This document shows, in pieces, positions 12,307 to 33,693 of a stretch of 64,000 nucleotides of DNA. Origin of the DNA: Desulfobulbus sp. Tol-SR (GTDB taxonomy: Bacteria > Desulfobacterota > Desulfobulbia > Desulfobulbales > Desulfocapsaceae); assembly GCA_000769715.1 (NCBI GenBank), contig JROS01000055.1, forward strand, positions 51,547 through 115,546, in the 5' to 3' direction. Position 1 is the first letter of the stretch. Every line of letters starts with the position of its first letter. The position numbers and the translations under genes are program-made. The notes below the pieces were generated by a model that ran no database searches, had not been told where the DNA came from, and saw only the letters and a program-made list of their open reading frames with translations.

Positions 12307-12348
12307 AGTATAGCCGAAGATGGCTGGAGGTCTTTGACCTGGGTCAAA
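12307..12348 (-). promoter_or_regulatory. HcpR/FNR-type operator plus -10 box for the ferredoxin gene
   Basis: Perfect palindrome TTTGACCTGGGTCAAA at 12333-12348 (TTGAC-N4-GTCAA core). On the minus strand a -10 hexamer TATACT lies at 12312-12307, placing the expected start near 12300 and the palindrome centre at about -41, the classical class-II activator position for CRP/FNR proteins. HcpR is the known FNR-family regulator of hcp and its ferredoxin in sulfate reducers. Confidence 0.78.
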
Positions 12349-13319: not shown

Positions 13320-14954
13320 TCAGCCGAGGATCGCCCGCAGGTCTTCGGCCGGGGTGGCGGCAATCGGTTTCACCGCGAAATTCTCGACCAGGACGTTGAG
13401 AACGTTCGGGGTGATGAAGGCCGGCAGCGACGGTCCGAGCCGGATGTCCTTGATCCCGAGGCTGAACAGGGTCAGCAGGATGACCACCGCCTTCTGCTCG
13501 TACCAGGAGAGGACCAGCGACAGCGGCAGATCGTTGACCCCGCAGTTGAAGGCCCCGGCCAGGGCGACGGCGATCTGGATCGCCGAGTAGGCGTCGTTGC
13601 ACTGGCCGACATCGAGCAGACGGGGGATGCCGCCGATGTCGCCGAGCTGCTTGTCGAAGAAGCGGAACTTGCCGCAGGCCAGCGTCAGGACCATACAGTC
13701 GGCCGGGATCTGCTCGACCAGTTCGGTGTAGTAGTTGCGGCCCGGTTTGGCGCCGTCGCAGCCGCCGACCAGGAAGAAATGGCGGATGGCCTTGCTCTTG
13801 ACCCCTTCGATGACCTTGTCGGCCACACCCAGGACGGTGTTGCGGGCGAAACCGGTCAGCACCGTGCCGCGATCGGCGTCTTCGGTAAAGCCGGGCAGGG
13901 CCAGGGCGCGATTGATCACCGGGGTGAAGTCCTTGTCCGGTCCGACATGGGCGACATCCAGCCAGCCGACGAGGCCGGTGGTGAAGACGTTGGCCTTGTA
14001 GGATTCCTGCGGCTTCTGAATACAGTTGGTGGTGAAGAGGATGGCGCCGGGGAAATCGGGGAGTTCCTTCTGCTGGTTCTGCCAGGCGGTGCCGTAGTGG
14101 CCGAAGAAATGCGGGTATTTCTTCAGTCCGGGATAGGCGTGGGTCGGCAGCATTTCGCCGTGGGTGTAGATATTGATGCCCTTGCCCGCGGTCTGCTGCA
14201 GCAGCATGTCGAGGTCCTTGAGGTCATGGCCGGAGACCAGGATCGCCTTGCCCGTTTTGTGGCCGAGCGGGACCGGGGTCGGCACCGGGTGACCGTAGGT
14301 GCCGGTATTGCCGGCGTCGAGCAGGCCCATCGCCTTGAGGTTGACCTCGCCGCACTTGAGCGCCAGCCCGACCAGGGTCTCGAGGCCGAGATCGGTGCGG
14401 GTCAGGTCGGCCAAGGCCTGATGGATGAAGGCATAGACGCTGTCGTCCTCCTGGCCGAGGATCGCCGCATGGTCGGTATAGGCGGCGAGGCCGCGCAGGC
14501 CGTAGACCGTGATCTGCTTCAGCGAGCGCAGATCGGGGCTGGGGTCGAGGGTAGTGATGAAGTCGAGCTGCTGGCCCTGGGCGATCAGGCCCTCGAGGGT
14601 GGCGGCCGGGGCATAGGTCGCCGTAGCGGCCGCGAAATCGATCGTGCCGCCGGCGGCGGCAACCTTCTTCTTCAGTCCTTCGCGGAGCTCGACGGCGGTG
14701 CTGATCCAGTTCTGGAACCGGAGCGGATCGAAGTCGACATTGGTCAGGCAGGCGAACGTCGCCTCGGCGGTGAACCGGTTGATGGCCTGATCGACGACGC
14801 CGACCTTGCGGCCTTCGACGGCGACGAGCGCCAGGCCCTGCAGGGCGTAGGTGAGCAGATCCTGAAGGCCGGCGACCTCGTTGGTCTTGCCGCATACCCC
14901 GATCTTGGTACAGCCGGTTCCTTGAGCAGTCTGTTCGCATTGATTACAAAACAT
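13320..14954 (-). CDS. hcp: Hybrid cluster protein (hydroxylamine / NO reductase), class I
   Basis: 544 residues. N-terminal [4Fe-4S] motif C3-x2-C6-x8-C15-x5-C21 is the class-I (anaerobe) spacing. Hybrid-cluster ligands are recognisable in TTNCIQKP, LVGGCDGA, LACGKFRF and VGQCNDAY. The enzyme reduces NO to N2O and can reduce hydroxylamine; it is cytoplasmic. The start is set by a near-perfect ribosome site AGGAGGA four bases before ATG. An FNR-type operator lies 150-170 bp upstream. Oddly, the reading frame continues upstream without a stop through the leader and into the methyltransferase gene, so a read-through fusion of about 879 residues is formally possible. Confidence 0.96.
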   Translation of the reverse strand: MFCNQCEQTAQGTGCTKIGVCGKTNEVAGLQDLLTYALQGLALVAVEGRKVGVVDQAINRFTAEATFACLTNVDFDPLRFQNWISTAVELREGLKKKVAAAGGTIDFAAATATYAPAATLEGLIAQGQQLDFITTLDPSPDLRSLKQITVYGLRGLAAYTDHAAILGQEDDSVYAFIHQALADLTRTDLGLETLVGLALKCGEVNLKAMGLLDAGNTGTYGHPVPTPVPLGHKTGKAILVSGHDLKDLDMLLQQTAGKGINIYTHGEMLPTHAYPGLKKYPHFFGHYGTAWQNQQKELPDFPGAILFTTNCIQKPQESYKANVFTTGLVGWLDVAHVGPDKDFTPVINRALALPGFTEDADRGTVLTGFARNTVLGVADKVIEGVKSKAIRHFFLVGGCDGAKPGRNYYTELVEQIPADCMVLTLACGKFRFFDKQLGDIGGIPRLLDVGQCNDAYSAIQIAVALAGAFNCGVNDLPLSLVLSWYEQKAVVILLTLFSLGIKDIRLGPSLPAFITPNVLNVLVENFAVKPIAATPAEDLRAILG

Positions 14955-15959
14955 GGCATCCTCCTGAATGGTGTTGTGTATCCTTGAGGGGTTATCCTCA
15001 CTGGATACGCTTTTTAGGTGCTGCTTGTCAAATTGATGGCGGTCAGTGGTTGGATGTTTTCCGTCCGTTGATGAGGATGATCCTACAGGAGGGTTGTTGG
15101 CTTCTCCTTGATCTAGGTCAAGAGAAGTGATTTTTTTTCGAAAAAAGGGCGGAGCAGGGGGGCAGCTGCGGTCGGCGACCACCAGCAGGATGCTGCCGGT
15201 CCCGGAAATGAAGGGCGACAGGTCGTAACCGCCGAAGCAGCGGGTGACGGAGAATCCCGAACCGGCGAGGATATCGATCCATGTCTGCGCCGGCCAGGCC
15301 CGGAGACGCAGCTGCTGCGCGAAATCCTCGTTGACGGCGTCACCTCCGGTCGGGCGCAGGCGGTAGCGTTCCTCGAGTTCGAGGATCTGGAACTCGGGAT
15401 CGTAGACGCGGAGGATCTCCTTGACGATGCGGCCGAGCTGCGGATCGTCGAAGATCTGGAACTGGAAGAGCTTTTTGCCCGGTTGCCGGAGCAGCTGGGG
15501 GCCCGGGACGAAGAGCTGCAACAGCAGGCGGCCGTGGTCCTTCTGCACGGCGCGGCAGCCGGCAAGACAGGCGCGGATGTCGTCTTCGGCGACGAGGAGG
15601 TTGAGGCTGTTGTAGGCAATGATGATGGCATCGAAGCGGATGCGGAAGGCGAGCTGCCGCATGTCCATCGCCGCCAGCCGGCAGCTCGGCCGCCCTGTTT
15701 CGCCGGCCCGGCGCAGCATCGGCAGGGAAATGTCGATCCCGGTTACCCGTCGGGTGAAAGTTGCCAAGGCCCGGCCGAGCCGGCAGGTGCCGCAGGCGAT
15801 CTCGAGGACCTCGCCGGCGGCCGGCAGGTGCGCTTGATAGAAATCGATGTCATCGGCAAAGCCGGCCATCTCCACCGCGTACAGGCGGCTGTAGAGCGCC
15901 TCGGGGAGGGGTTGGAAGACGTCCACCGGTTCATCGCCGTAATCGTCGTAGATCTGCAT
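14955..15959 (-). CDS. SAM-dependent methyltransferase lacking a stop codon before hcp
   Basis: About 335 codons. SAM-binding motif I is VLEIACGTCRLGRALA, followed by VTGIDISLPML and the acidic segment FDAIIIAYNSLN, a class-I methyltransferase fold. The conserved part ends near FISGTGSILLVVADRS (about 15180); beyond it the frame continues through low-complexity sequence encoded by the hcp promoter/leader and then directly into hcp. Homopolymers (T8 at 15131-15138, A6 at 15141-15146) lie exactly where the gene should end, so a single-base indel could hide the true stop. Start ATG 15959 precedes QIYDDYGD; ATG 16016 is an alternative. Substrate unknown. Confidence 0.75.
15080..15122 (-). promoter_or_regulatory. 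HcpR/FNR-type operator plus -10 box for hcp
   Basis: Inverted repeat at 15107-15122, on the minus strand CTTGACCTAGATCAAG (TTGAC-N4-ATCAA; one base off perfect). A -10-like TAGGAT lies at 15085-15080, 32 bp from centre to centre, nearly the same spacing as in front of the ferredoxin gene (31 bp). Predicted start near 15073 gives a leader of about 120 nt. Confidence 0.7.
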
Positions 15960-16097
15960 AGGTCGTATGTACAGGCTCGCGCCGTTCGCTGCAAGGTACG
16001 AAGGGGCATTTTTCACTGGTGATCGGCAGGCAAGGGGGGCGCGGTGCGGGGCCCGGGTGATTATGGTCGCCGATCGTCCATTCGTGCCGAAAGACTT

Positions 16098-16123
16098 TTC
16101 ATTTCGAGAAATGAAGGTATAAT
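16098..16123 (+). promoter_or_regulatory. Superoxide reductase promoter with 18-bp palindrome
   Basis: A perfect TATAAT at 16118-16123 is preceded by the perfect palindrome TTCATTTCGAGAAATGAA (16098-16115), which covers where the -35 box should be; the -35 itself (TTTTCA) is poor. This layout suggests regulator-dependent transcription. The palindrome is not a Fur, PerR, Rex or FNR box that I recognise. Confidence 0.65.
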
Positions 16124-16138
16124 ATGAAGTTATTTTTT

Positions 16139-16155
16139 GTGGCAGGGTCTGCCAC
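16139..16155 (+). other. Short hairpin near the 5' end of the superoxide reductase mRNA
   Basis: GTGGCAG and CTGCCAC (16139-16145, 16149-16155) pair perfectly around a 3-base loop. It would sit about 10 nt after the predicted start site and could protect the mRNA 5' end. No T-run follows, so it is not an intrinsic terminator. Confidence 0.45.
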
Positions 16156-16211
16156 TTGCAACCAATCTGTACTGCTGCTGATGCCAGAGTATATTGCAGG
16201 GGAGAGAGAAC

Positions 16212-16619
16212 ATGCCGGATAGAAGGACATTTCTGAAGAGTTCACTCGCCGCGGCCGCGGCCGCCTTGATGGGAACGGGATCGGCCGAGGCCGCCGATTC
16301 GTCGTTGATGGGGAGTGTTATCTACACCGCCGAGCATCCGGGCAAATGGACGCAGAAGGAAGGCAGTCATGCGCCGGTGATCACCGTCGAGGGGGGCAAG
16401 GTCAAGGTGCAGACCAACCACCCGATGACGGAGAAGCATTTTATCGTCCGCCACACCCTGGTGCTGGCCGACGGCGTTGTCCTCGGCAGCAGGACCTTCA
16501 CCGCCAAGGATCCCGAGGCCGTGTCCACCTATGAGTTGCCGAAGGGCTATTCCGGCGTTCTCCTCGCCACCAGTTTCTGCAACCTCCACGATTTCTGGCT
16601 GACCGAAACCAAAATCTGA
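16212..16619 (+). CDS. Tat-exported superoxide reductase (neelaredoxin/desulfoferrodoxin centre II type)
   Basis: 135 residues. A twin-arginine signal (DRRTFLKSSLAAAAAALM) directs folded export. The mature domain keeps the SOR iron site: His in GSHAPVI, His in NHPM, His in TEKHF, and the C-terminal CNLH providing Cys and His. There is no N-terminal desulforedoxin domain, so it is of the short neelaredoxin type. It reduces superoxide to hydrogen peroxide in the periplasm, using an unknown donor. The ATG at 16212 follows a strong ribosome site (AGGGGAGAG). The promoter is a TATAAT preceded by a palindrome. Monocistronic, ending at a 12-bp hairpin. Confidence 0.92.
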   Translation: MPDRRTFLKSSLAAAAAALMGTGSAEAADSSLMGSVIYTAEHPGKWTQKEGSHAPVITVEGGKVKVQTNHPMTEKHFIVRHTLVLADGVVLGSRTFTAKDPEAVSTYELPKGYSGVLLATSFCNLHDFWLTETKI

Positions 16620-17837: not shown

Positions 17838-17904
17838 TGACGCTCCTTGATATAGATTGCTGGGGGAAAATCGGCTCGATCGCGGTCCATGGTCGATGAT
17901 ACCC

Positions 17905-18214
17905 TCATGCCAGCAGCTTGTCCAGTTCCCGGGCCAGTCTGTTGAGGTGGCGCTGTTCCTCGCCGGCCATTTCGAGGAAGAATTTAGACGATGGTGTTCC
18001 CGGCGGGATCGATCTCGCCTAATCGCTGCGGCAGTTCATTGAGGGGGATGAGTCTGGCGCCGGGGATGTGGGCCTCCCGGTATTCCTTGGGTTGGCGGAC
18101 ATCGATGAGCTGGAGGTCGTGCGGCGGCAGACTGCCGATATATCCACGGGCCTCTTCAGCGGTGATTTCCCTGCCTTGGTCGAACAATGACTGCCAGTTG
18201 ATCGGTTTTTCCAT
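17905..18214 (-). pseudogene. Remnant of a rhodanese-ferritin-like fusion gene with internal deletion
   Basis: The intact start encodes 76 residues of a rhodanese domain (LIDVRQPKEYREAHIPGA ... DPAGNTIV) and then stops at 17986 just where the catalytic Cys loop should follow. Immediately afterwards, in another frame, the sequence reads KFFLEMAGEEQRHLNRLARE and ends LDKLLA at a stop at 17905: the C-terminal helix of a rubrerythrin-like ferritin domain with an EEQRH metal motif. Rhodanese-rubrerythrin fusions are known in sulfate reducers. The simplest reading is an internal deletion of roughly 130-170 codons that also shifted the frame. Neither activity can remain. Confidence 0.75.
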
Positions 18215-18282: not shown

Positions 18283-18771
18283 TCAGCGCTGTTTGTGGAG
18301 CAGCGCCGCCTGATCCGGGGTCGCCGAGTAACCGTCGAGCTGGATGAGCCGGTATTTACCGGGATCTTTGCCGATGGCGGCGCTCGTCGCCTCCGGCAGC
18401 CAGTGGCTGTCGTCGATCAGGTTGTAGAAGTACGAGTCGATGCCGACGAAGCCGTCCAGGAAATGGGTGAGGATATGCAGGACCTTGCTCGGATACCCCT
18501 GTTGCAGAGAGGAGAGCTGGGCTATCGTGCGAATCCCGGTCTTTTCCAGGTCGACGACCAGCGCAGCGACGATTTTCCGGTTCTCGGCGACGGCGGCGGC
18601 CAGGGCCCCGACGAATCCCGGGTCGTCGCCGGCCAGCGACCGGTCCTGCCGGATCTCGAGACAGTCATAGACGACCAGCGAGGTCAGATCGAAGAAGCGA
18701 CGGACCTGCCGGCTGCAGGCGGCAAACGAATCGCCGGCGGCAAGGACCCGGTGCTGGGCGATGCGGGTCAT
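18283..18771 (-). CDS. Conserved-context hypothetical protein (fprA operon)
   Basis: 162 residues from ATG 18771, preceded by GGAG and 17 bp after the fprA stop. I do not recognise the family. It appears mostly helical and soluble, with a single-Cys cluster spot (AACSRQVRRFF, VVYDCLEI), an Ala/Val-rich middle (IVAALVVDLEKTGIRTIAQL) and an aromatic segment (VGIDSYFYNLIDDSHWLP). There is no signal peptide, membrane helix or metal motif. Codon use is like the neighbours. Its place between the flavoprotein and a rhodanese-ferritin remnant suggests a role in oxygen, NO or sulfane-sulfur handling, by context only. A longer open frame upstream overlaps fprA and is not real. Confidence 0.75.
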   Translation of the reverse strand: MTRIAQHRVLAAGDSFAACSRQVRRFFDLTSLVVYDCLEIRQDRSLAGDDPGFVGALAAAVAENRKIVAALVVDLEKTGIRTIAQLSSLQQGYPSKVLHILTHFLDGFVGIDSYFYNLIDDSHWLPEATSAAIGKDPGKYRLIQLDGYSATPDQAALLHKQR

Positions 18772-33649: not shown

Positions 33650-33693
33650 CGACAATGGCCGATACCCGCTGGGGTATCGGCCATTGTCGTTTT
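33650..33693 (+). terminator. secA terminator, 18-bp perfect stem
   Basis: CGACAATGGCCGATACCC (33650-33667), loop GCTG, GGGTATCGGCCATTGTCG (33672-33689), then TTTT. It stands between convergent secA and ppk2. Confidence 0.85.

Follow-up and report, generated by a model that had tools for sequence, protein, structure and literature searches.

Among described systems, those closest to the locus reported here are repressor operators over core promoter elements, such as the HcpR sites over the -10 elements of sat and apsAB in Desulfovibrio, and the PerR motif GtTAATgATnATcATTAaC predicted for Desulfotalea psychrophila, both from one published study (PMC545781). The HcpR sites are likewise inverted repeats over the core promoter of a metabolic or stress gene in an anaerobe; unlike them, the repeat considered here has no regulon that we could find and no known regulator, and its sequence is dissimilar. 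PerR- and Fur-type boxes resemble it in their setting, an oxidative-stress gene in a related organism, and orthologs of the gene in relatives carry such a motif. The TAT-SOR class of proteins is described in SORGOdb (PMC3116461). The control of superoxide reductases in strict anaerobes is poorly mapped.

The gene and its promoter

The window, i.e., the whole 64,000-nucleotide stretch of DNA analyzed, belongs to a Desulfoprunum-like genome whose nearest named relative is Desulfoprunum benzoelyticum DSM 28570 (89% protein identity). On its forward strand, positions 16212 to 16619 encode a 135-residue protein resembling TAT-signal desulfoferrodoxins/superoxide reductases, with profile matches to PF01880 (39.8 bits; cutoff, 22.2) and TAT_signal (28.4 bits; cutoff, 22.7); it scores below the NCBIfam cutoffs of both narrower desulfoferrodoxin models, and the solved structures closest to it in sequence are those of desulfoferrodoxins. 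The product fits the TAT-SOR class, with a desulfoferrodoxin iron domain, a twin-arginine signal, and a predicted superoxide reductase activity. The gene order FDP, rhodanese, MBL-rhodanese, superoxide reductase (SOR), methyltransferase, hcp is syntenic in D. benzoelyticum, and no regulator gene was recognized among the neighboring genes that were scanned or read.

The first predicted iron-ligand histidine of the 16212-16619 product lies in the sequence GSH, compared to EKH or AKH in the aligned solved desulfoferrodoxins; the lysine that precedes this histidine is thus missing or displaced, and D. benzoelyticum likewise has GSH. That lysine is important in characterized enzymes.

Upstream of the gene, a -35-like hexamer TTTTCA (16096 to 16101, forward strand; four of six consensus positions) is followed after a 16-nt spacer by a consensus -10 hexamer, TATAAT (16118 to 16123, forward strand), and the pair matches the consensus at 10 of 12 positions. 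Transcription would start about 7 nt 3' of TATAAT. A leader hairpin, GTGGCAG-GGT-CTGCCAC, with a 7-bp stem is predicted at 16139 to 16155 (forward strand). The early mRNA hairpin noted in the sequence-only reading is present, but its stability is ordinary and not significant against shuffles: over 28 nt the z score is -1.53, with 17 of 200 shuffled sequences equally stable, and the whole leader gives z = -0.93. A search of positions 15900 to 16300 against Rfam returned no family match up to E=5. A sigma-54 promoter was considered, a TTGCA being found 3' of the hairpin, and was rejected: there is no fitting -24 element, and D. benzoelyticum reads TTTACA at that place (by eye).

The inverted repeat

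Positions 16098 to 16115 read TTCATTTCGAGAAATGAA, an inverted repeat without strand, in which 8-bp arms (TTCATTTC and GAAATGAA) flank an asymmetric 2-nt center, GA. It had been described as a perfect 18-bp palindrome; the repeat, its coordinates, and its distances are as described, but it is not perfect, the sequence differing from its own reverse complement at two positions (16 of 18 symmetric). It does end 2 bp before TATAAT, with GG between the two. The left arm overlaps the -35 element, also as described, but to call that element poor was an overstatement for a hexamer with four of six matches. With the start site placed as above, the repeat is centered near -24, in the spacer of the promoter. 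No other match with up to three mismatches occurs in the window except the reverse complement of the repeat itself.

Arms of at least 8 bp with a loop of at most 4 nt arise in 0.5 to 0.6% of random 50-nt stretches of the same composition; for simulated upstream regions of 250 nt the figure is 1.2%. The window as a whole has 15 inverted repeats of this kind, compared to a mean of 6.5 in 20 Markov simulations. Because some 27 upstream regions in the window were looked at, one such repeat among them by chance is not very surprising. A separate hairpin with 18-bp arms (33650 to 33689) lies between convergent genes and is probably a terminator.

Conservation among relatives

From AAAGAC to TATAATA, 34 of 35 bases are identical in D. 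benzoelyticum, against 62% identity over the remaining 212 intergenic columns; within this intergenic region a block that good was reached in only 2 of 5,000 column shuffles. D. benzoelyticum keeps the core TTCATTT-N4-AAATGAA and seven of eight pairs, and its sole change breaks the innermost pair and is not compensatory. When the sequences are aligned on the -10 hexamer, the number of pairs formed out of eight falls from 8 in the window and 7 in D. benzoelyticum to 4 in SB20, 2 in C5, and 1 in bin_102. Among 59 orthologous upstream regions (the window plus 58 fetched loci, leaving out fragments lacking an upstream region, weak distant matches, and duplicate loci), only those of the window and D. 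benzoelyticum contain the core with up to two mismatches. The sequence-only reading was to be refuted if the palindrome proved absent upstream of orthologous SOR genes in close relatives, and on this point the outcome is mixed: the core is found in the closest species, with its seven pairs, and is degraded or absent in the other three genus members and in all other orthologous regions examined.

To calibrate the 34-of-35 match, we used the 27 upstream regions in the window for which a counterpart exists on the same D. benzoelyticum contig, a set that includes one probable antisense open frame (18440 to 18670) and regions possibly containing coding sequence. Blocks of 35 columns with 34 or 35 identities occur in 9 of the 27, the repeat's own region being one of the 9. 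The promoter spacer, with 15 of 16 bases identical, reaches the upper end of the range of 14 promoter-like sites but does not exceed it. Conservation in D. benzoelyticum is therefore ordinary for this species pair and is weak evidence of function, since a third of the regions, 9 of 27, have an equally good block; as proof of function it was rejected after this calibration. The analysis establishes the repeat, the promoter match, and the restriction of the repeat to two species; the repeat is real but limited to this lineage.

Search for further targets

The core with up to two mismatches was matched 19, 11, 14, 16, and 24 times in five genus genomes (G000, G001, G004, G003, and G002, respectively), and two rotated-arm controls gave 11, 10, 28, 15, and 32 and 19, 23, 24, 35, and 58 matches in the same order. 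An apparent regulon excess, 84 matches compared to 23 for a reversed control (five genomes, forward counts), was gone when measured against the rotated-arm totals of 96 and 159. No oxidative-stress gene was seen by eye beside any of the 17 further sites in G000 (inspected in 16 fetched regions and one in L003) or of the 10 in G001 (10 regions); the sites inspected cover the window's genome and D. benzoelyticum, plus one site in G004.

In the order as a whole, the exact 16-base pattern is found in 2 of 257 genomes: the window's and one other, in which it sits between unrelated genes and has no -10 element close by. The core together with TATAAT occurs without mismatch only in the window and D. 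benzoelyticum, and with up to two mismatches in 12 of the 257. The expectation that the palindrome would recur before other oxidative-stress genes was thus not borne out, no second target having been found in the genus (five genomes) or the order (257 genomes) at the sensitivity used. A literature search, judged largely from search listings, found no report of the 16098-16115 element.

A different motif pair, resembling AATTTTGTAAAT and AATTTTACAAAT, is kept in what is probably an intergenic region of three Desulfoprunum genomes (L124, approximately 777 to 820; L135, approximately 762 to 805; L138, approximately 725 to 768), near an MFS-type transporter frame in L138 (by eye). As a candidate operator, this pair may be superior to the 16098-16115 repeat.

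Comparison with known regulator families

The published Fur/PerR motifs of the group do not fit the repeat, nor do the Rex and FNR consensus sequences, which were compared by eye, in agreement with the sequence-only reading on all four families. Fur/PerR boxes are odd centered and TGATAATnATTATCA-like, whereas the window repeat is even centered (N2) and has different half-sites; the best Fur 15-mer in the 200 nt upstream of the gene has six mismatches. For FNR and CRP the consensus sequences are TTGAT-N4-ATCAA and TGTGA-N6-TCACA, and for Rex it is TTGTGAA-N4-TTCACAA; by eye, none matches at 16098 to 16115.

The HcpR motif published for the group likewise does not fit at 16098 to 16115, and its core TTGACCnnGGTCAA has no match there with up to two mismatches. 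HcpR boxes of the Desulfuromonas/Desulfotalea type (atTTGAccnnggTCAAat) have the same 8-2-8 architecture as the repeat, but the arms agree by eye at just two of eight positions. HcpR-type sites do occur elsewhere in the window, at 12334 to 12347 (TTGACCTGGGTCAA, no mismatch) before a ferredoxin-domain gene and at 15108 to 15121 (TTGATCTAGGTCAA, one mismatch) before hcp, an arrangement that agrees with the published HcpR regulon (PMC545781); by count, the four matches with up to two mismatches are not above chance. With such sites before hcp and ferredoxin-type genes, a known regulator, whose motif the palindrome does not match, accounts for part of the redox neighborhood.

The wider relatives present a different picture. 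An expectation-maximization (EM) search of the 59 upstream regions (150 nt each) yielded the motif aanAAtAATTatCATTAnt at a posterior of at least 0.9 in 31 of them, its strongest sites lying mostly 36 to 46 nt before the start codon. Its log-likelihood was 130, compared to 61 to 70 in four simulated sets, a comparison in which the effort was unequal (60 starts of 30 rounds for the real data, 25 of 20 for the simulated) and the sequences are related. A stricter test with the Fur 15-mer was much weaker than the motif model, with 8 of 59 regions at P ≤ 0.05. The motif resembles the predicted D. psychrophila PerR motif (PMC545781). One of the 31 regions is that of D. benzoelyticum itself, with the motif at its -10 element; the window has a posterior of 0.16. 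All five genus genomes contain Fur-family genes, and when as many as three mismatches are allowed, the D. psychrophila motif has a few matches in four of the five. In many relatives, then, a Fur/PerR-type repressor probably controls the SOR-like gene, judging from these motifs, and the window promoter is without a clear box. This contrast between the wider relatives and the window is the more solid observation.

Competing explanations

We consider that the stretch would be the core of an ordinary sigma-70 promoter (TTTTCA-16-TATAAT) for a TAT-exported superoxide-reductase-like gene, with a spacer whose mirror symmetry is most likely fortuitous and lineage-limited, and with the sequence between the promoter elements kept in the closest species, as happens at many promoters of the pair; no dedicated protein, we infer, reads the symmetry. 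We give this reading about an even chance, nearly level with a repressor operator and slightly favored over it. Against fortuity, the 34-of-35 block stands out within its own intergenic region, the spacer identity is the highest in its range, and the arms fall exactly on the -35/-10 interval, a frequent location of operators; moreover, a regulator with a single target would show no regulon. The main rival is a lineage-limited operator, on both arms of which a putative dimeric helix-turn-helix repressor would block RNA polymerase at the -35/-10 interval until released by an oxidative or related signal, the SOR-like gene being its only known target. That reading, which we hold to be somewhat short of an even chance, gains from the center near -24, from the pairs and bases kept in D. 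benzoelyticum, from the rarity of perfect 8-bp arms in stretches of this length, and from the missing Fur/PerR-type box: since the box of the wider relatives is not seen in the window, other control, or none, must apply there. It is weakened by degradation or loss of the repeat in three of four other genus members, by the lack of a second target or a recognized nearby regulator gene, and by conservation no better than ordinary for the species pair. That a dedicated repressor outside the Fur/PerR, HcpR, Rex, and FNR families took over, in the D. benzoelyticum lineage, an exported superoxide reductase that elsewhere is apparently under Fur/PerR-type control, with the 18-bp element as its single operator, we regard as improbable. 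If the element is an operator, it would illustrate on a small scale how control of an oxidative-defense gene turns over in strict anaerobes; if not, it shows that a repeat with 8-bp arms in one of a few dozen promoters is expected by chance so often that a footprint is required.

The suggestion of another redox regulator, perhaps an activator, is not supported, with no second target in the genomes searched and with match counts not above the rotated-arm controls. A center near -24 suits a repressor or a MerR-type protein, not an ordinary activator. SoxR is a redox-sensing member of the MerR family, and in activation of this type a dimer on the spacer dyad would twist an over-long spacer for use by RNA polymerase; the dyad center precedes the -10 element by about 11 nt, as in MerR-family promoters, in which 19 to 20 nt separate recognizable -35 and -10 elements. 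However, the hexamers at spacings of 18, 19, and 20 nt match TTGACA at none of six positions, the best -35 element (four of six) being at 16 nt, and published delta-proteobacterial genomes are reported to be without SoxR/SoxS orthologs (PMC545781). We consider activation unlikely in general and MerR/SoxR-type activation very unlikely; with no usable -35 element at MerR spacing, a repressor operator or fortuitous symmetry is left. The least probable of the readings is that the element descends from the Fur/PerR box of the wider family and has diverged. The PerR-like motif in 31 of 59 regions, its likeness to the D. psychrophila motif, and the Fur-family genes throughout the genus would agree with it, but the low window posterior, the six mismatches to the Fur 15-mer, the even-centered symmetry, and a position upstream of the -10 element rather than around the start all argue against it.

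Other features of the neighborhood

On the reverse strand, a rhodanese gene (17840 to 18214) is truncated to 76 residues, compared to a 275-residue rhodanese-rubrerythrin gene in D. benzoelyticum; approximately 520 bp are lost internally, although the 3' end can still be seen downstream, owing to either a real deletion or an assembly error. Also on the reverse strand, a methyltransferase frame (13320 to 15959) has no stop and continues in frame into hcp (prismane, PF03063), and the methyltransferase of D. benzoelyticum ends at 266 residues.
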